Below, piece by piece: positions 1 to 20,727 of a stretch of DNA of 27,590 bases (its first letter is position 1; each line of letters opens with the position of its first letter). The notes beneath the pieces were generated by a model that made no database searches, was not told the DNA's origin, and saw only the letters and a program-made list of their open reading frames with translations. The stretch is from IMG/VR virus record IMGVR_UViG_3300044972_002288, positions 1 to 27,590 of that record; one strand, written 5' to 3'. The DNA is from a virus. The position numbers and the translations under genes are program-made.

Positions 1-133
1 CCGAGCCAGCAGCCCCTGCCAGTTCAGCCCGTCAAAGTACAGGAGGTACAATTCCTGGCTCTTCGGGCAGCTCGTACTATGGCCCAGAATCAAACGCCGA
101 GCCAGCAGCCCCTGCCAGTTCAGCCCGTCAAAG
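1..133 (+). repeat. Perfect 37-bp direct repeat, 96-bp period
   Basis: Bases 1-37 and 97-133 are identical. The period is 96 bp, 32 codons, so the repeat stays in frame and encodes the same Pro/Ala/Ser-rich segment twice. The other 59 bases of each unit differ. More copies may lie to the left of the window. Confidence 0.85.
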
Positions 134-1649
134 CAGTGGCAGAAACTACGGCTCAAGTGCTACAGGAAATGCAGCATTTGCCGCAGGAATGAGCAGTGCT
201 GCTGCGTCATCTACATTGGGCGACACTCTTTTTGGGATGAGTACCGCTGCGGTCGATCCGGACAACCCAGACAGCAAAAACATGACGCATGAACAGCGAG
301 CTGCTGCCCGTTTGCGTCGCTGGCAGATCACCATGGGTATTCAGTCCGTCGGCTATGGTCTTGAGGATATTTATTACAGTGGAGCCAGAGGCGCGCTTAA
401 CAACTTGCCGTTTGCCGCTCAGGGGCTTGCCGCAGCCGCTGGCGTAAACCCAGAAACAGCCGAGCGAGTCTCTGGCTACACGGCTCTGCTTGCCACTGGT
501 GCGATGGTGGCTTACGACAATCGCGAAGGTCTTGCCAAGAGTGCTGGCATCGATCTTGGTAAACGCGAAGACAAGATCATGGGCGTCATCCCAAATTACC
601 TTGGATTGCCCGACCTCTCGGACACGCAAGCGGCCCAGAAAAAGGTCACCGATGCGATGTACTACGTGGACAAGTACGGCGAGAAGTCCAACGAAGGTAA
701 AAAGTACAAAGAGGAAGCCATCAAAGCGATGGTCGATGTGCAATCTGCTCAAGCCAGAGACACATCGCCAGCAGAAATCGCCCGTGTCCGCTCGCTTCCA
801 TCTGTAGAGGCAATGTCCTCCGGAGAGATCCTTGGCCGGACAGGCTTGGGTGGAGACCGGATGACCGCGAATCTGGCCCAGAGCAAAGCTGTCAGCGAGT
901 CTTCGGCCTCCCAGATCTCCAAGGCTCTCTCAGGCGACCCGAAAGCAATTAGTGCCTTGCAGCAGGACATCAAAGACAACAAGCTCTCGGGCCGCGATAT
1001 GACCATGGCCCAGTCTGTGGTCAATATGGGTGGCAATATGAGTGCGTTTGACGCCAAGCGAATCGAGTCTCTGCGGGCCTCGGCGTCTAATCCATATACC
1101 GACATCAAAGCTGGCCAAAGCATGATTCAAGGTATCATGCAGAACAACGGCGCATCCAAAGAAGATGCCGCACAGTTTGCTAACGGGATGGGTCAGGAGA
1201 TGGGCGAGATGCAGAAACGCGCCCCTCAGAACTGGCAAGCCAGCTTTGATATGAACAAAGATCGATACGTTGCCAATATCGCGGCCAGTCTGGGCGGGAT
1301 TCAGGCCAACGGCAGTCGCGGCAACGCAAGAGCCTCGCAGACGAACAACCTGAAGGGCCAGATCTATAGCGATCTGGTGAACTCCGGCGTTCCGGCCAAC
1401 AAGGCTCGCGAGCTTGCCAATCAGCTCTACATGGAAGGCAACGGCCAGTTCCGAGGCCGAATGGACGCCGCTTCCGGAGCCAGTAACGGCATGAGCCAGA
1501 TGCAGAACTTCATGGGCATGCTGGGCGACGAACAGCAGATGGCATTCGGCCAGTTCCAGCAGAACAGGATGCAGATCCAGATGCACCAGGCAATGCTCCG
1601 TAGACAGGCTTTGATGCGATCGCGATTTGGCATGAGAGGGAACCGTTAA
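1..1649 (+). CDS. Large virion protein, C-terminal part (probable tape measure)
   Basis: The frame is open from base 3 with no start, so the gene begins left of the window; the first internal ATG is at 189. The visible ~548 residues start with a Pro/Ala/Ser-rich linker holding a repeated AEPAAPASSARQ-type segment. An Ala-rich, mildly hydrophobic part follows, then a long, probably helical Met/Gln/Asn-rich C-terminus ending in basic residues (RRQALMRSRFGMRGNR). No enzyme motif is visible. Its place directly before a hub-like tail gene, its helical composition and its large size fit a tape measure protein, which sets tail length and sits inside the tail tube. This is inference from position; an internal virion protein is the alternative. 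The stop overlaps the next start (TAATG), so the two genes are probably translationally coupled. Confidence 0.6.
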   Translation, partial: EPAAPASSARQSTGGTIPGSSGSSYYGPESNAEPAAPASSARQSSGRNYGSSATGNAAFAAGMSSAAASSTLGDTLFGMSTAAVDPDNPDSKNMTHEQRAAARLRRWQITMGIQSVGYGLEDIYYSGARGALNNLPFAAQGLAAAAGVNPETAERVSGYTALLATGAMVAYDNREGLAKSAGIDLGKREDKIMGVIPNYLGLPDLSDTQAAQKKVTDAMYYVDKYGEKSNEGKKYKEEAIKAMVDVQSAQARDTSPAEIARVRSLPSVEAMSSGEILGRTGLGGDRMTANLAQSKAVSESSASQISKALSGDPKAISALQQDIKDNKLSGRDMTMAQSVVNMGGNMSAFDAKRIESLRASASNPYTDIKAGQSMIQGIMQNNGASKEDAAQFANGMGQEMGEMQKRAPQNWQASFDMNKDRYVANIAASLGGIQANGSRGNARASQTNNLKGQIYSDLVNSGVPANKARELANQLYMEGNGQFRGRMDAASGASNGMSQMQNFMGMLGDEQQMAFGQFQQNRMQIQMHQAMLRRQALMRSRFGMRGNR

Positions 1650-6112: not shown

Positions 6113-7177
6113 TCATCCCACATCCTCCGAGACCTTCTTGGCCAGCGTCGTGGAAATCTCTGCGTAAATCTCCGTAGTCTTGGCAGATGAGTGTCCTAGA
6201 GCAGCCTGAGCCGCATCGAGGCCAAACTTCTCTCGCACCATTGTGGCGTGATAGTGGCGAATCTGGTGGGATGTAAAATGAGGAACCTTGGCTCTCTTGC
6301 AGGCGATCTCTATCCAGCGGCCATAGTAGTCTGAGGTCATCGAGGTGAAGAGCGGTGCGTGTGGGTCGTTCGTCTTCCACTCGTTGATCAGAGCCATGGC
6401 TTTTGGCCCAAGATGGACAGTTCGATCCTTATTCCTCCAGCGGTTCTTGTGCTTGTAAGGGGCATAGACGTTGCCATGGATCTCCGCCATGGTCATCCTG
6501 AGAACCTCACCGCACCGCATGCCTGTGTAGAGCTGCATCTTGAGGACAGCGGCGATTCGTGGCTGGCAGTGAGACAGGATCGATTCAACAACATCGCTCG
6601 GAACCGGCTTGATCTTCTTCGGCTGTTTGGCAGACGATCGTCCAGGTTTGATCTTTGGTACGGTCAGCAGAGCCGACCATACAGTAGGCGAGACCAAGTC
6701 CATCTGAGCCGCCCAGCGGAAAATGTTCAGGACGTAGTTGTGCTTTTTATTCACCGTTGTCAAAGCCAGTCTTTTGTCCACCCACATCTGAATCAGTTCG
6801 GTAAGACGGCCAGGCGAGAATTTTTCAGCTGGGTAGTCAAAAACCTCAAGATCTTTGACGACTCGGGCGACAGCTTTGTCCTCGTCGGAGTCTGGAGGTT
6901 TTGTGCGCTTTACATGCTGTAGGTATTTTGAGGCAATTGTAGCGACACTGAGTTTGACCTGGACTTTGACTTTAGGGCATGGCTCGCCATAAGCCATGAT
7001 GTTCGACAACATCTTGGCATATGACTCCGCCGCCTCGATTGATCCGGATAAGCCCGTATATATCTCCGTACCGTTCCAATAGATGTAGGAACGGCCCGAA
7101 GCCTTGTGTTGACAGTGGTTTGGGACAAGGGACTTCTTACGTCCCATGTCTGAGGTATCTATGATATATCCGTACAT
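6113..7177 (-). CDS. int: Tyrosine-family site-specific integrase
   Basis: The C-terminal domain carries the tyrosine recombinase residues: Arg221 in TGMRCGEVLRM, a likely Lys near 250 (NKDRTVHLG), His304 and Arg307 in TSHQIRHYHATM, His329 in LGHSSAKTTEIY and the nucleophile Tyr338. A core-binding SAM-like domain occupies ~75-165. Residues ~18-46 (VPNHCQHKASGRSY and NGTEIYTG) match the N-terminal pattern I associate with planctomycete integrases. The enzyme would cut and rejoin attP and attB for integration and excision. ATG 7177 is given, but a start at 7147 (MGRKK) is also plausible because neither has a strong ribosome site. The attP core lies ~130 bases upstream of its start, the usual arrangement. 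It is transcribed against all early genes. Confidence 0.93.
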   Translation of the reverse strand: MYGYIIDTSDMGRKKSLVPNHCQHKASGRSYIYWNGTEIYTGLSGSIEAAESYAKMLSNIMAYGEPCPKVKVQVKLSVATIASKYLQHVKRTKPPDSDEDKAVARVVKDLEVFDYPAEKFSPGRLTELIQMWVDKRLALTTVNKKHNYVLNIFRWAAQMDLVSPTVWSALLTVPKIKPGRSSAKQPKKIKPVPSDVVESILSHCQPRIAAVLKMQLYTGMRCGEVLRMTMAEIHGNVYAPYKHKNRWRNKDRTVHLGPKAMALINEWKTNDPHAPLFTSMTSDYYGRWIEIACKRAKVPHFTSHQIRHYHATMVREKFGLDAAQAALGHSSAKTTEIYAEISTTLAKKVSEDVG

Positions 7178-9270: not shown

Positions 9271-9545
9271 TTGGAAGCATTGTTACGCTTGCAGGCAAGA
9301 GGCCTCTCTACGTCGTTACGGGTCATACCTCATCATACTATACCTGCACCCCCGTAATTGGCGGAAAACCTGTTGTCTGCAAGCGTAATGATATTAAGCC
9401 TCAGTCGGTTGAGCAACTATTAAAACGATACGAGGGGTTGTCGCCCAGGCATGCGACAGCCTCGTTTGCTCATAACCTTCCGGCTCGAAAGAAAGAAGCC
9501 CTTCGGTTCTCGCAGAAGATGTATCGCAGGGGCAAGACTCAATGA
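9267..9545 (+). CDS. Unrecognised small basic protein, 92 aa
   Basis: It starts at the ATGA overlap with the annealing-protein stop. The N-terminal half looks like a small beta barrel (GSIVTLAGKRPLYVVTGHTS, then a Cys-containing strand region); the C-terminal half is basic and helical. It may bind nucleic acid, but no family is recognised. It belongs to the coupled early operon. Confidence 0.6.
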   Translation: MIGSIVTLAGKRPLYVVTGHTSSYYTCTPVIGGKPVVCKRNDIKPQSVEQLLKRYEGLSPRHATASFAHNLPARKKEALRFSQKMYRRGKTQ

Positions 9546-9682
9546 GTACCAGTATTGACCGGCATCTCAAGAAAAAGTACGATGTGTCTAAACAAGTTCA
9601 TAAAAAATGCCCCGTGACGAGCAAGGTCACTGAGGCGGATTTTGTGATCTCGGAGTGCTGCCTCCTAACCACTTTGTCCTAA
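9542..9682 (+). CDS. Small unrecognised protein, 46 aa
   Basis: It starts in an ATGA overlap with the 92-aa gene. The product is basic at the N-terminus (DRHLKKKYDVSKQVHKKC) and ends with Cys-Cys-Leu-Leu. The ORF is short and support is only the tight coupling with the upstream gene and its length up to the next ribosome site. Confidence 0.45.
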   Translation: MSTSIDRHLKKKYDVSKQVHKKCPVTSKVTEADFVISECCLLTTLS

Positions 9683-9698
9683 TAGAGAGGACGTTGTC

Positions 9699-10538
9699 AT
9701 GATAGACGATAACAGCGAACACGTCAACAGAACTCGCCCGTTTTTTACTGCAATACCAGATGATATTGCTAAAAGAGAAGATATTCCTCCGACCGCAAAG
9801 CTCGTCGCAGGTTCTATTTTCACTCGGACATTCCAACGCAGGATAACAAGATTTATTAACTTGCGAGCAGCATGGATTGCTGAAGACTGGGGGATTTCCG
9901 CTGACTCTGTAACTCGAGCATTAAAGCTGTTGGTCGAGCTTGAAGTGATCGAAGTCAAAAGAACGGCTTCTGGCCTCGAGATGCGCTTTGTTTCGTTGCC
10001 GCAAGATGCGGATTCGGATTCCGCAAAAAGCGGAGAGCCATTCCGCAAAAAGCGGACAGAGACTCCGCAAAAAGCGGATAGCGACTCCGCAAAAAGCGGA
10101 ATGCTCCCTTATACCGTATCCCAGACCGTATCTCAGACTGAACAACAACAGGAAGAGTTGTCGTTGTTGCGGAATCGGTTACCTGATCCAACCACATATA
10201 AGCCCGAGAACCTGACCCCTCGAAAGGGAGCCGTGCTGACCGAGGCTCAAAGAAACTTGGCCACCCAGTTACTGGGCGCGACTGGCCAGGATCGTCAATT
10301 CGCCGCTTCGGTAAGTCAGGAGATGGCCAACAAGACTGGGTTCCTTGAGTTCTACCTCAAGGCCACGATCAAGGCCAGCAAGGAGCGAAAGATCAAAGGG
10401 ACGACCATCGCCTACCTGATCGGGAGTATCAACAACTCTTGGGGTAACGGCGACTGGGTTGACCCAGATCAAGCCGCTAAGGATCAAAGGGATAAAGAAA
10501 TTGCAGCGAGACGCGCTCGCTTAGATCGGCTTACCTGA
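9699..10538 (+). CDS. Replication initiator, lambda O-like, with ori in its gene, 279 aa
   Basis: ATG 9699 follows GAGAGGA. Residues ~55-90 form a winged helix-turn-helix (AAWIAEDWGISADSVTRALK then a LLVELEVIEVKR wing). Residues ~107-134 are encoded by four DNA iterons and form a low-complexity linker of repeating SAKSG, RKKR and PQKAD. A Gln-rich linker and a C-terminal helical domain (~165-279) follow. The architecture, an N-terminal DNA-binding domain, origin repeats inside the middle of the gene and a C-terminal partner domain, is that of lambda O, where O binds four iterons and recruits the helicase loader P. The assignment is from architecture, not from sequence similarity. The stop overlaps the next start (TGATG). 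Confidence 0.7.
   Translation: MIDDNSEHVNRTRPFFTAIPDDIAKREDIPPTAKLVAGSIFTRTFQRRITRFINLRAAWIAEDWGISADSVTRALKLLVELEVIEVKRTASGLEMRFVSLPQDADSDSAKSGEPFRKKRTETPQKADSDSAKSGMLPYTVSQTVSQTEQQQEELSLLRNRLPDPTTYKPENLTPRKGAVLTEAQRNLATQLLGATGQDRQFAASVSQEMANKTGFLEFYLKATIKASKERKIKGTTIAYLIGSINNSWGNGDWVDPDQAAKDQRDKEIAARRARLDRLT
10020..10100. other. ori: Candidate phage replication origin: four iterons
   Basis: TCCGCAAAAAGCGGA occurs at 10020-10034, 10042-10056, 10064-10078 and 10086-10100, four identical 15-bp palindromes at exactly 22-bp intervals (7-bp spacers that differ). Because 22 is not divisible by three, the copies fall in frames 0, 1, 2 and 0 and encode different peptides, so selection acts on the DNA. 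Two helical turns of spacing would stack four initiator dimers on one face, as in the lambda origin. Confidence 0.85.
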
Positions 10539-11335
10539 TGAGTAACATCGTCGTTAACAGTTTTGTGCGGGGATACGTCGAGCAGATCTTTATCAACAAG
10601 GGCTACGACCCAGTGCTTGACGAAGAGATCTCTAAGACATTTGAGGCTCAGTGGGATCACTGGAAGAGGTTCATGGTGCAGGCCGGACTGAACGCTGACG
10701 AGCATTTCGCAGAGAATGTCGCCTATGAATTTGCCACGAAACGTCTGGTCGGCGGAGCGGCTCGGATCTTTGAGCATTTTGCAGATTTCGTCAGGAATCG
10801 GCCTAAGGCTGTAGCGCAACACGAAATTGCAAACCAAAAGGGATACGAATCTGAAGAGTGCCAGTATTGCGATGGAATTGGCTGCGTCAGCGTGCCGGTT
10901 GAGTACAAGGAACAGACCTCAAATCGTTCTTTCGCCTGTGTTTGCAACAACGCTCTGAAGTATGCGGGAATCCAGGTCGCAAACAGTGAGATGCTTCGGT
11001 ATGTGCTACAGAAGCAACGGCAGCGAGAGCAGCATTTGCTGATGTGGTGCGAGGCTCGCGGACTCGACATGTTTGGCGATCTGGCGGAGTACAACGCCAA
11101 GGCGAAGAGCTACCGTGACTCGCTGGGCGAACTGTTTAAGTCGGCACGACCAGAGGACATGGACAAGGCCGACAGGGAAGCACTCAAGGCCAAGAGGGCC
11201 AAGGAAGCGATGGCGGCAGTCGTCATCGAGTCTCAGGTGGAGATGTTTAGGCGTAAGCAAGTCGTGGAAGTAGCGGTAAGTCAACCATGGGCTGTACCTG
11301 TGGAAGACGAAGAAATGTTCCTCATGAGTATCTGA
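10538..11335 (+). CDS. Zinc-ribbon protein after the initiator, 265 aa (possible helicase-loader analogue)
   Basis: The start overlaps the initiator stop. The N-terminal ~95 residues are helical. Residues ~109-137 hold CQYCDGIGC, then CVC, a CxxCxGxG zinc-knuckle pattern like that of DnaJ-type zinc ribbons. A long charged helical C-terminal part follows (Lys/Ala/Glu-rich ~190-240). No Walker motifs are visible, so it is not a DnaC-type ATPase. Its place matches that of lambda P downstream of O, so it may bring the host helicase to the origin; this is inference from position. A DNA- or RNA-binding accessory protein is equally possible. Confidence 0.55.
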   Translation: MSNIVVNSFVRGYVEQIFINKGYDPVLDEEISKTFEAQWDHWKRFMVQAGLNADEHFAENVAYEFATKRLVGGAARIFEHFADFVRNRPKAVAQHEIANQKGYESEECQYCDGIGCVSVPVEYKEQTSNRSFACVCNNALKYAGIQVANSEMLRYVLQKQRQREQHLLMWCEARGLDMFGDLAEYNAKAKSYRDSLGELFKSARPEDMDKADREALKAKRAKEAMAAVVIESQVEMFRRKQVVEVAVSQPWAVPVEDEEMFLMSI

Positions 11336-11346
11336 AAGGAAGTCAA

Positions 11347-11541
11347 ATGCTGGTCATTGCACGGAAGATTAACGAGCGGTTTAAGATCCATATCCCCGAA
11401 GGTGTTCATGGCGACATCGAAATCGTCGTAACGGATGTCACAGGCCAAGGCACATGCGTCCGTATCGGCATCGATGCTCCACGGGAGATGAGCGTCACTC
11501 GCGACGATGCCATCAACAAAACAAGAAAGGTGCTGGCATGA
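11347..11541 (+). CDS. csrA: CsrA/RsmA-family translational regulator
   Basis: ATG 11347 follows AAAGGA. The 64-residue product has the CsrA pattern: start MLVIARKINERFKI, the inner strands with GDIEIVV and the signature VRIGIDAPREMSVTRDD. The family's usual length is ~60-65, so it is complete. CsrA dimers bind GGA-containing sites in mRNA leaders and block or promote translation. A phage copy could act on its own or host transcripts. It sits in an operon with thyX, overlapping its start by 4 bases (ATGA), which suggests coupling. Confidence 0.92.
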   Translation: MLVIARKINERFKIHIPEGVHGDIEIVVTDVTGQGTCVRIGIDAPREMSVTRDDAINKTRKVLA

Positions 11542-12302
11542 AAATCATCAACGCTCCATCCGTCTACCTGGTCGGCAAACAGGAACTCAACAGCCTTGAT
11601 TGTGCCGAGTTCTTAGAAGCCCACGGAGTCGAACACTGGAACAGCGACACCGACAATGCTAGCGAGCATCTCGTGGAGATCGCTGGCCGATTGTGCTACA
11701 TGAGCTTTGCCAAGCCTCGACCAGGTGGGAACAAGGCTTATATCGACCATATCCTGGAAGTGGGCCACGGCTCAGTTCTCGAACATGCTGTTTACTCGAT
11801 GATATTTACAGGCGTCTCACGGTCACTCACGCACGAGCTGGTGAGGCATCGTGCTGGCATGAGCTACTCGCAGCTCAGTCAGCGATATGTGGACGAGTCG
11901 GACTGTGCGTTTGTGCGACCACCAGGCATCAAGCCAGGAAGCACGCCAGAAGCGATCTGGTCGCAGGCCATTGGCCGAGCGCAGGGACATTACGAGGCGT
12001 TGTGCGAAACGCTGGAATACAACGACTTTGCCGACATCGAAGGCCCGACACTTCGACGCAAGAAATGCCGCGAGGCCGCTCGTGCTGTCCTCCCGAACTG
12101 CACTGAAACAAAGATCTTTGTGACAGGTAACGCCAGAGCATGGCGACACTTCCTTGAATTACGTGGCTCAATCCATGCGGACGCTGAGATTCAACGGCTG
12201 GCAATTGCAGTTCTGGACGTGTTGCAAGCTGAATCACCGAATATTTTTGGCGATTACACAGTGACGGAAAATGGAATTGAAACGAATTGGAGGAAAGTGT
12301 GA
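11538..12302 (+). CDS. thyX: Flavin-dependent thymidylate synthase ThyX, 254 aa
   Basis: ATG 11538 overlaps the csrA stop. The ThyX core is visible: HGSVLEHAV around 77-85 and the signature RHRAGMSYSQLSQRY at 103-117, which binds FAD and dUMP. The enzyme methylates dUMP to dTMP with methylene-tetrahydrofolate and NAD(P)H, supplying dTMP for phage DNA. I count eight residues between RHR and the conserved Ser, one more than in the textbook RHRx7S motif. The length is normal. Its 3' end is repeated in diverged form at 12545-12594. Confidence 0.95.
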   Translation: MKIINAPSVYLVGKQELNSLDCAEFLEAHGVEHWNSDTDNASEHLVEIAGRLCYMSFAKPRPGGNKAYIDHILEVGHGSVLEHAVYSMIFTGVSRSLTHELVRHRAGMSYSQLSQRYVDESDCAFVRPPGIKPGSTPEAIWSQAIGRAQGHYEALCETLEYNDFADIEGPTLRRKKCREAARAVLPNCTETKIFVTGNARAWRHFLELRGSIHADAEIQRLAIAVLDVLQAESPNIFGDYTVTENGIETNWRKV

Positions 12303-13634: not shown

Positions 13635-13712
13635 CCTGAGAGATGTTTTCGAACAGTCCTAACTCTCAGGCTGTTGGGTCTAAGCCCCCTTCGTCTTGTT
13701 GGCGGAGGGGGC
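13635..13712 (+). other. Two strong hairpins downstream of element B
   Basis: CCTGAGAG (13635-13642) pairs perfectly with CTCTCAGG (13663-13670), and GCCCCCT (13684-13690) with AGGGGGC (13706-13712). Neither has a T-run after it, so they look like structured leader RNA for the gene at 13735 more than terminators. Confidence 0.45.
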
Positions 13713-13734
13713 GATCTTCCACAAGGGGATAACG

Positions 13735-14094
13735 ATGCGAGCCAGAGCAGTAAACCCTCGCAAACGTGGCGAAATGACCAAGGCTGAGATCGCATTTAAA
13801 ACGCAGTGCGACTGGCTCAACGCATTCTTCGATCACGTCCGGTATGAGAGTCATACGCTGAGGTTTGGCGAGCTGAGATATACGCCAGACTTTACCGGAG
13901 TCAGGACAGAGGACGGTCAGGTTTGCCACTTTGAAGTCAAACCGGCTGGCCACAGGCACGTTTACACGGATGCCGCCAAAATTAAACTCAAAACTTTTTC
14001 AGCCGAGTACGGGGAATACGTGTTTTTCCTCGCTTGGCCGGACAAGAAACAGCCGCGAGGCTGGCACATCGAGGAAGTCAGCAATAGGGAGTAA
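13735..14094 (+). CDS. PD-(D/E)XK nuclease-like protein, DUF1064-type, 119 aa
   Basis: ATG 13735 follows AAGGGGA; the earlier in-frame ATG at 13696 falls in a hairpin without a ribosome site. The product has a nuclease-type core: an Asp in RYTPDF and the pair Glu-Val-Lys in CHFEVKPAGH, spaced as in PD-(D/E)XK enzymes of the phage DUF1064 family, which often look like Holliday-junction or endonuclease VII-type accessory nucleases. An N-terminal basic part (RKRGEMTKAEIAFKTQ) and a C-terminal WP-containing segment complete it. It would cleave DNA, with specificity unknown. It is the first gene after the structured leader. Confidence 0.6.
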   Translation: MRARAVNPRKRGEMTKAEIAFKTQCDWLNAFFDHVRYESHTLRFGELRYTPDFTGVRTEDGQVCHFEVKPAGHRHVYTDAAKIKLKTFSAEYGEYVFFLAWPDKKQPRGWHIEEVSNRE

Positions 14095-14615: not shown

Positions 14616-14978
14616 GTGAACGCAGATCCAATCAGGCAAATGTCAAAGCGAAACGAGCATAACATGCTTTCGCTTATGAGAATCAAAGAGTACGCACTTC
14701 TGACGATCCGCTATGCCAACGAAGGAATGCTGGATAACAAGCAGATCAGAGAGATCCTTTGCAGCAAGGATCTTGAGGAGTCAGAAAAGGCTCGGAAGAT
14801 TCTCGCCCTTTTTGAAGAACGCGAAATCGACCGTGAACTTGATCAAAACCCTCAATGCAATTCAAACTGCGAGTTTGAGGCAAACCTGTTGCGTGGACTC
14901 AAGCAGATCAGAGAACTGGCTGTCGGTATAAACAGTGGCAATTACGCCAAAAAGGAGTTGGTCAATGAATCGTTCTGA
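14616..14978 (+). CDS. Unrecognised helical protein, 120 aa, GTG start
   Basis: I chose GTG 14616 because TGGAGATACGAAA precedes it exactly as in the neighbouring cassettes; the upstream ATG at 14583 lies in the CGGTA element and has no ribosome site. The product is helical and charged with a Glu-rich centre (EREIDREL). It has no recognised domain. Its 3' end contains CGGTA copy 2 and overlaps the exonuclease start by 14 bases. Confidence 0.55.
   Translation: MNADPIRQMSKRNEHNMLSLMRIKEYALLTIRYANEGMLDNKQIREILCSKDLEESEKARKILALFEEREIDRELDQNPQCNSNCEFEANLLRGLKQIRELAVGINSGNYAKKELVNESF
14924..14949 (+). promoter_or_regulatory. CGGTA element, copy 2 (inside a coding region)
   Basis: CGGTATAAACAG is followed by the hairpin TGGC-AATTAC-GCCA (14936-14949) and AAAAAGGAG, the exonuclease ribosome site. 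It lies within the previous gene's 3' end, 41 bases before ATG 14965. Confidence 0.65.
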
Positions 14979-15885
14979 ATGGCTGGAAGTGAGACGCAAA
15001 ACGATCGGTGCTTCAGACGCCCCGATCATCCTTGGGATCAGCCCATGGAGCAGCCCACATGACATCTGGATATCGAAGATGGGCATGGATGCAACCGAAG
15101 AAACTCAGGCGATGCGTCTGGGTCATTACTTGCAGTCCGGAGTGGCCATGGAGGCTCTCCACCAGATTGGTGGATCGATCCTCTCCGAAGAGGACTTTGC
15201 CGTCCACCCAAATGGGTGGGCCTCGGCGACCCCAGACTACGTCATCCGGCAGGACGACGACAACGTCATCCTTGAAATCAAGTGTACGCATGAGAAAAGC
15301 TGGGACACTGTTCCTGAGCATTACCTCTTGCAAGTCCACTGGCAGTGCTGGGTTCACGGCATCGACCGTGCCTACATCGCTGTCCTGCATGGCTCTTCAC
15401 AAGTCAAAGTGTACGAGCTGCAAATCGACCTGTTTTCGGACTGGTTTATCGACTCTGTGGCCCACGTCAAAGCATGGTTTGACAACCATGTTTCACTTGC
15501 CGAAGAGCCAGCGATAACAGGTAAGCGGAATGACGCCCTTAAAGCGGCCATAAGGGCTGCTTCTGGCACTTCCGTTGACCTGAGCGAGGAAATCATCGAC
15601 AAGATGCGTAGAATCGCCCAGATCAAGCGAGAAACAGCCCCAGCGACCGACGAGCTGTCTGCTCTTGAGCGTGAGGTCAAGGAAGCGATCGGAACGGCTG
15701 AAGTTGGCCTGTATCAGGGCAAAACGGTCGTGACCTACAAAGAGACGATTTCCAAGCGTTTCGATACCAAGAAATTCCAAGCGGATCGGCCTGACATTGC
15801 CAAGGATTACCTCAGCGAAACGGTTTCGCGACGGTTTTTGCTGAAGGACGATCTGATTCTTTCCCTAACGGAGGTGACAGCGTGA
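14965..15885 (+). CDS. YqaJ-family exonuclease, 306 aa
   Basis: ATG 14965 follows AAGGAG. The YqaJ (lambda-exonuclease-like) core is clear: RRKTIGASDAPIILG at ~10-24, Asp91 in TPDYVI, Glu104-Ile-Lys106 in VILEIK and Gln123/Gln127 in the LLQVHWQCWVHG helix. The catalytic Asp-Glu-Lys set binds two metals and degrades one strand of duplex DNA 5' to 3'. The single strand left would be bound by the RecT/Bet-like protein (8473-9270). A Glu/Lys-rich helical segment and a C-terminal part complete a typical ~300-residue length. The SSB gene starts in a 4-base overlap, so the two are coupled. Confidence 0.85.
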   Translation: MNRSEWLEVRRKTIGASDAPIILGISPWSSPHDIWISKMGMDATEETQAMRLGHYLQSGVAMEALHQIGGSILSEEDFAVHPNGWASATPDYVIRQDDDNVILEIKCTHEKSWDTVPEHYLLQVHWQCWVHGIDRAYIAVLHGSSQVKVYELQIDLFSDWFIDSVAHVKAWFDNHVSLAEEPAITGKRNDALKAAIRAASGTSVDLSEEIIDKMRRIAQIKRETAPATDELSALEREVKEAIGTAEVGLYQGKTVVTYKETISKRFDTKKFQADRPDIAKDYLSETVSRRFLLKDDLILSLTEVTA

Positions 15886-19938: not shown

Positions 19939-20727
19939 ATGATCACAACACAAAACGTCCGCTTCTCACAAGCAAATGCTAAAATTGAGAGATTGTCACA
20001 AGTTGACAATCTACAGCCGTACCTTGACGGCGACAAGTCTATTTACAGTTTTGACCTGATTTCAGGTTATTCGTGCCCATTCGCTAACGAGTGTCTTTCC
20101 AAGGCCGTTAAAAACGACAATGGTAAACGAACAATTCGGGACGGAAAAAACACTAAAACTAGGTGCTTTTCGGCCTCACAGGAGGTTCAATATACGAACG
20201 TATATAACCTTAGGCTAGGCAATTTTGAGGCCTTAAAAGGCCTTGAAACGGCCGATGAAATAGCGGATGTGATCGAATCACAACTACCGGATGATGCCGG
20301 AATTGTTCGTATTCATGTTGCGGGTGACTTCTTCAACCAGCGATATTTAAAAGCTTGGTTGATTGTAGCTAAAAGAAATACTAGAAAGCTTTTTTACGCG
20401 TATACTAAGAGTCTACCATATTGGATTAATCTATTAGATGAGATTAACCAATTGGAAAATCTAGTGTTAACGGCCTCCAAAGGTGGCAAGTTCGATCGAT
20501 TGATTGATGAATTCAATCTTAGGCAAGCCGTGATTGTCTTTTCAGAACTAGAGGCCAAAACACTAGGCCTAGAGATAGATCATGACGATTCCCACGCGGC
20601 CGATCCAAGTAAACGTAATCAGTCCTTTTCCCTTTTAATACATGGCACGCAACCCAAGGGAAGCGACGCGGCCGCGGCCTTGACGGCCTTAAAAGGCCTT
20701 GGGTCATATTCCCGTAAAAAGGCCTAA
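19939..20727 (+). CDS. GP88-family protein, 262 aa
   Basis: ATG 19939 follows CGAACGGA. The family pattern of phage gene-product-88 proteins is clear: an N-terminal SCPFANEC (Cys46, Cys52), RCFSASQE (Cys76), then RIHVAGDFF (124-132), YLKAWLIVAK and FYAYTKSLPYW (152-162). The Cys residues could bind metal and the RIH..GDF segment may be a catalytic or binding core. Its function is unknown. The C-terminal ~60 residues are Ala-rich and end in basic residues. The gene is AT-rich but holds many GGCC and AGGCCT sites, unlike its neighbours. Confidence 0.85.
   Translation: MITTQNVRFSQANAKIERLSQVDNLQPYLDGDKSIYSFDLISGYSCPFANECLSKAVKNDNGKRTIRDGKNTKTRCFSASQEVQYTNVYNLRLGNFEALKGLETADEIADVIESQLPDDAGIVRIHVAGDFFNQRYLKAWLIVAKRNTRKLFYAYTKSLPYWINLLDEINQLENLVLTASKGGKFDRLIDEFNLRQAVIVFSELEAKTLGLEIDHDDSHAADPSKRNQSFSLLIHGTQPKGSDAAAALTALKGLGSYSRKKA

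Follow-up and report, generated by a model that had tools for sequence, protein, structure and literature searches.

Origins of replication that lie within the gene of their own initiator are known from lambda and the Stx phages (PMC7466680) and from SPP1 (PMC6316719), and such an origin has been reported for phage MD8 (PMC8508860). In lambda the origin is situated in gene O (J02459) and carries four palindromic iterons (39034-39118; O-some). The oriL of SPP1 combines direct repeats and an AT-rich unwinding element within gene 38, whose product, the replisome organizer gp38, binds the origin repeats with nanomolar affinity and has the loader gp39 and the helicase gp40 as partners (PMC6316719). 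In the RepA_N initiators of the PLE satellites of Vibrio cholerae the semi-palindromic iterons vary in concert with the DNA-binding domain, the C-terminal domain being conserved, and natural swaps have been described (PMC8263062).

The stretch of viral DNA analysed here (the window; 27,590 nucleotides of the IMG/VR record IMGVR_UViG_3300044972_002288) encodes a replication-initiator-like protein of 279 amino acids (9699-10538, plus strand), recognised by its open reading frame, its PHROG matches and a model of its winged-helix (wHTH) domain. Within this gene the 15-bp sequence TCCGCAAAAAGCGGA occurs in four exact copies on the plus strand (10020-10034, 10042-10056, 10064-10078 and 10086-10100), with start-to-start spacings of 22, 22 and 22 bp, as an earlier note on this DNA had claimed. 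A fifth, degenerate copy on the same strand (GCCGCAAGATGCGGA, 9998-10012; three mismatches) had been overlooked there; its CCGC/GCGG arms are intact and it keeps the 22-bp register, 22 bp from the first exact iteron. The description of the iterons as palindromic applies to their perfect 5-bp inverted arms TCCGC/GCGGA but not to the A5 centre, which is non-palindromic. At up to three mismatches five matches were observed as compared to 1.09 expected, and none of 100 shuffles gave five. The array is identical in two more contigs (L005 and L006), which are near-identical to the window, so that its sameness there says little on selection. A lambda-type origin is the most economical and most likely reading of this arrangement, and based on the sequence analysis the array at 9998-10100 very probably represents the initiator-binding part of such a phage origin within the gene of its own initiator.

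The reading frame of the gene is not followed by the array. As had been claimed before, iterons 1 to 4 fall in all three frames (0, 1, 2 and 0 of the 279-codon open reading frame) and encode different peptides, namely SAKSG, FRKKR, TPQKAD and again SAKSG; the degenerate copy encodes PQDAD. The exact period and the exact copies might also result from a recent tandem duplication of coding DNA by slippage, the repeats having no function as DNA, and GC-rich coding repeats with 21- and 24-bp periods were indeed found by the motif scan. However, only the 15-bp cores agree between the copies, their 7-bp spacers (GAGCCAT, CAGAGAC, TAGCGAC) having different sequences. The period is also not divisible by three, and many unrelated initiators have different repeats at the same position in the gene; such an origin by slippage seems very unlikely. 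The initiator gene also contains at least three near-identical sites above the coding expectation, its repeat-chain score being 22.5, whereas 300 synonymous-codon shuffles reached at most 7.5 and 300 codon shuffles at most 6.0; the neighbouring genes score 3.0-3.5. Gene O of lambda, which served as positive control, reached a score of 7.5 (p = 1/301), and its annotated iterons were recovered exactly.

The parallel to lambda O drawn in the earlier note holds for the position in the gene, the copy number, the spacing and the combination of an A-rich centre with GC-rich arms, but neither for the Pfam family membership nor for the strength of the melting region. The four palindromic iterons of lambda correspond to the four exact copies plus the degenerate one in the window, and both the lambda iteron TCCCTCAAAACGAGGGA and that of the window have GC-rich arms and an A-rich centre. 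They are spaced by 20, 24 and 23 bp in lambda and by 22 bp in the window, and extend over codons about 117-145 of 299 and 108-134 of 279, respectively. In both cases the array is located in the middle of the gene, preceded by an N-terminal DNA-binding part and followed by a C-terminal part, and the next gene overlaps the initiator gene by few bases (PMC7466680, PMC8508860). Unlike lambda, the window has a much weaker melting region, and no P homologue was recognised. The 50-bp nearest-neighbour dG is about -64.5 at 10110 as compared to a window mean of -69.7 (sd 4.2), i.e. the stability minimum beside the array amounts to about 1.2 sd and is weaker than its equivalent in lambda (-57.5); the weakly less stable duplex at 10101-10160 is a candidate for a modest unwinding element. 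SPP1 resembles the window in having its repeats inside the initiator gene but encodes its own helicase. The probable origin in the window joins the functional class of lambda O and SPP1 gp38, with a different wHTH family.

The protein consists of the wHTH domain (about residues 21-97), the iteron-encoded linker and a C-terminal domain. In the predicted structure the wHTH reaches a pLDDT of about 70-86, with helix 68-80 as recognition helix; the motif S67-A-D-S-V-T-R73 (9897-9917, plus strand) contributes Asp69 as position 3 and Arg73 as position 7, and in a set of 11 diverse initiators near-invariance is confined to S67, D69, R73 and L78. Residues from 101 on, including the iteron-encoded ones, were modelled at low confidence and are probably disordered. 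An initiator-type DNA-binding protein is indicated by the wHTH model together with weak profile matches, the best initiator profile being PHROG 270 'replication initiation protein' (E 3.2e-7, residues 12-125), followed by the DnaD-like PHROG 186 (E 6.5e-5) and the O-like PHROG 391 (E 6.4e-4). The Pfam lambda-O family (Phage_rep_O) was not matched by the window protein at E <= 0.1, and lambda O was not matched by the wHTH profile built in this analysis. The solved initiator chains 4pql, 4pt7 and 5kbj were among the best matches in the fold comparison; the Z scores for 4pt7 (9.7) and 5kbj (9.1), on which a comparison with the RepA_N plasmid and satellite initiators was based, are shared by many other wHTHs, including unrelated ones. 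Apart from a structural match in BFVD with 31% identity, only three near relatives were recognised as having the C-terminal domain. No relative was detected in a profile scan of genome contigs with the initiator alignment, and a tblastn search of 50,697 phage records with the window initiator and the N-terminal part of its counterpart in contig L007 gave no match.

According to Pfam the window protein resembles only MarR/GntR-type repressor wHTHs, at sub-threshold level. Since wHTHs also occur in repressors and a dimeric wHTH on palindromic sites is typical of them, the role of the protein at the palindromes within its gene might be confined to repression of its own operon, as autoregulator or roadblock, with replication starting elsewhere. 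However, the sites are situated about 300-400 bp into the gene and not at a promoter, four to five phased copies are an origin-like number, and the matching PHROG profiles name replication initiators. Homologues of the same architecture furthermore bear annotations such as O-like or initiation protein, and their genes are often located upstream of helicase or loader genes. We therefore consider mere self-repression improbable.

The relation between the iterons and the protein is illustrated by L007, which like L005 and L006 is a further contig of the same phage lineage. In a blastn comparison its similarity to the window ends at 9535 (93.9% identity) and resumes at 10141 (88.5% identity), and in place of the 605 bp that the window has in between, L007 contains 457 bp of unrelated sequence. 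The exchanged cassette (9536-10140, plus strand) comprises the intergenic gap, the wHTH domain and the iterons. The replacement DNA encodes a different wHTH and carries a different array of GGGGCGCAG-type repeats (L007 2914, 2937, 2961 and 2984; spacing 23, 24 and 23 bp), which sits at the same position in the gene, and the C-terminal domain is kept. Thus, DNA-binding domain and sites were replaced jointly and move as a unit, which at the level of sequence strongly suggests that the docking sites and the DNA-binding half of the protein function as a pair. The same logic applies to the origin modules of the PLE RepA_N initiators, whose iterons of about 30 bp are intergenic, in contrast to the intragenic ones of the window. 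A search with the GGGGCGCAG pattern yielded L402 as sole strong independent match in a wHTH gene; its helix RERAVRT as compared to KERALQV in L007 makes a pairing of helix and repeat suggestive only.

The exchange in L007 also bears on a possible action of the repeats in the mRNA, where they might form hairpins, e.g. ones recognised by the CsrA protein that the phage encodes (about 11347-11541). Strong folding was calculated for the array stretch as RNA (z = -5.1), GGA is present in every repeat and the CsrA-family gene is located about 1 kb downstream. L007, however, retains the surrounding operon yet its repeats are unrelated in sequence, the arms can all pair with one another so that no single set of hairpins is favoured, and the phased spacing and the tie to the recognition helix of the own protein are features of DNA binding. 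A function as mRNA hairpins is hence the least probable of the explanations considered.

Intragenic arrays are widespread among phage initiators of this type. Searches with PHROG 270 and 391 in about 750 genomes of three phyla provided 78 unique wHTH open reading frames, which were selected without a DNA criterion. A significant intragenic repeat chain (p < 0.02, 60 dinucleotide shuffles per open reading frame) was present in 40 of these 78 phage and prophage genes from three host phyla. In the stronger chains 118 of 128 intervals were 21-24 bp long, a concentration that holds within the scanned range of 19-26 bp, and the intervals modulo 3 (52/38/38) were distributed over all three frames. 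The first copy followed a median of 30 residues past the wHTH. Members of PHROG 270, 391 and 186 carry such arrays with a period of about 22 bp, and intragenic arrays are likewise present in 10 of 17 wHTH genes of named phages picked by protein similarity; in several named phages the gene right after the initiator is annotated as DnaB-like helicase, primase/helicase, DnaC loader or P.

Array scans for CCGC-N5-GCGG and CCGCA-N3-TGCGG in 2.9 million viral contigs and in genome contigs revealed 41 arrays of the CCGC class in wHTH genes, including that of the window (helix SADSVTR). All 41 recognition helices have Asp at position 3 and Arg at position 7 (S-x-D-x-x-x-R), corresponding to 18 of 18 clusters at 55% domain identity. 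In the background Asp-3 was found in 9 of the 78 wHTH open reading frames and in 6 of 58 clusters (Fisher p about 1e-12 against 18/18), where the CCGC set had been chosen on the DNA pattern and the wHTH detection profile had been seeded from eight CCGC-class domains and later rebuilt on the unbiased set. In the unbiased set itself, chains with at least two CCGC palindromes were present in three of five Asp-3 genes as compared to none of 32 others (p = 0.0013). Helix similarity also predicts iteron similarity when the rest of the domain is controlled for (partial r = 0.156, Mantel p = 0.0065). Phage U7, whose helix SRDTVIR is combined with different repeats, indicates that Asp-3 is insufficient for GCGG sites.

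A permuted palindrome, CGCCA-N3-TGGCG, had been intended as negative control and turned out to be an iteron class in wHTH initiator genes itself (L183-L214; helix x-x-R-[TS]-x-E-R); it therefore serves as contrast and not as null. Position 3 is Arg (15) or His (1) in the 16 arrays of this second class in wHTH genes, mostly within R-[TS]-x-E-R. Further recurring pairings were observed between S[RK]RSV[IM] helices and GTGAATC...CTGCAC-type repeats (L233, L305, L234, L455, L456), and between SNSRVSE helices and TTCGGAAAA repeats (L459, L462, L463).

A search for the iterons in relatives, as proposed in the earlier note, was thus answered twice: iterons and wHTH domain were swapped jointly in L007, and in unrelated phages the iteron type predicts helix residues. 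Both findings imply by genetic inference that the specificity of the initiator fits its own sites, although they would be compatible with any kind of self-binding, including that of a repressor. It appears somewhat more probable than otherwise that phage wHTH initiators throughout their superfamily have their own binding sites about 30 codons past the wHTH, that an Asp/Arg switch at position 3 tracks GCGG versus GGCG half-sites, and that by natural exchange of the cassette a phage changes its replication specificity (compatibility group) in a single step. With the sites in the coding sequence, the rule of protein-DNA recognition would be readable from sequence alone. The correspondence between helix and iteron is the newest part of this picture; neither it nor the breadth of the architecture was found in the literature searched, which had limited coverage. 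The string CCGCAAATTGCGG did not occur in any of 5.39 million papers, a negative result that does not establish novelty, as most subscription papers lay outside the scope of the search.

The array, its location in the gene, the cassette exchange and the association of helix and iteron are computational findings, from which we infer binding, dimerisation, unwinding, helicase loading and the start of replication at the array as parts of a lambda-type origin. A dimer of the N-terminal wHTH would grip each TCCGC/GCGGA palindrome via the recognition helix S-A-D-S-V-T-R, and the 22-bp spacing, equal to two turns, would place successive dimers roughly on one face of the helix. The multi-dimer complex building up would then strain the adjoining DNA, and the conserved C-terminal domain, probably together with the product of the next gene, would load the replicative helicase of the host. 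Since the linker encoded by the iterons between the two protein domains is probably disordered, the DNA could stay fixed for binding at little cost to the protein. The wHTH domain and the iterons are inherited and exchanged as a single cassette.

The next gene (10538-11335, plus strand) overlaps the initiator gene by 1 bp and encodes a protein of 265 amino acids with the Cys motif CQYC...CVC. By its position this protein is a candidate helicase loader or P analogue; it had no match in Pfam, PHROG or PDB, and its structure model was unusable (pLDDT 39.6). The window, the 44-kb sister record and the record of L007 gave no match to a DnaB-type helicase (DnaB_C) or an IstB/DnaC-type loader, so that helicase loading is a putative step. 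In the 44-kb sister contig the slope of the GC skew changes from about zero to positive near the array (window orientation) but shows no sharp extreme, and the skew was therefore left out of the evidence.

For the phage of the window a probable origin and its initiator are thereby located, and window and L007 represent a natural matched pair for initiator specificity. Since the gene of such an initiator contains both the sites and their reader, a wHTH-DNA recognition code could be worked out from the thousands of phage initiators that are at hand. Possible uses include the prediction of origins in unannotated phages and the question of how phages escape origin-level interference, such as cross-inhibition by ectopic origins or origin-directed nucleases.

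The replication and recombination neighbourhood of the window includes a Holliday-junction resolvase (13696-14094) and a YqaJ exonuclease (14935-15885). Together with a tyrosine integrase (6113-7177, minus strand) and a Pfam GP88-family protein (19939-20727) these genes reflect a temperate-phage setting. The CsrA-family protein (Pfam E 4.9e-13) is unusual for a phage; its gene comes after the initiator operon and before that of a ThyX-type thymidylate synthase (11535-12302).

Arrays of CCGCA-N3-TGCGG were also detected outside recognised wHTH genes. In the Kiritimatiellia MAG JAKSOW01 (L089, L101, L107, L129, L133) they comprise two to four copies spaced by 21-22 bp, lie in short open reading frames with PHCAETTPQVAD-like peptides and perhaps belong to a multicopy mobile element. 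In L051, L055, L057 and L066 the palindromes form pairs with a distance of 23 bp, again not within wHTH genes; L066 has two such pairs. These may represent origins or operators that are separate from the initiator gene. In bacterial genomes the two-copy CCGCA pattern was dismissed as mostly noise in GC-rich DNA, 7 of 105 arrays lying in wHTH genes.

At the start of the window (1-217), positions 13-133 match the sister contig also 84 bp out of register, which seems to indicate a tandem repeat of about 84 bp. The sister record of L005 (G751, 44136 bp), classified as linear in IMG/VR, begins with the same 63 bases with which it ends; the genome may therefore be complete at about 44 kb, or the identity reflects an assembly overlap.
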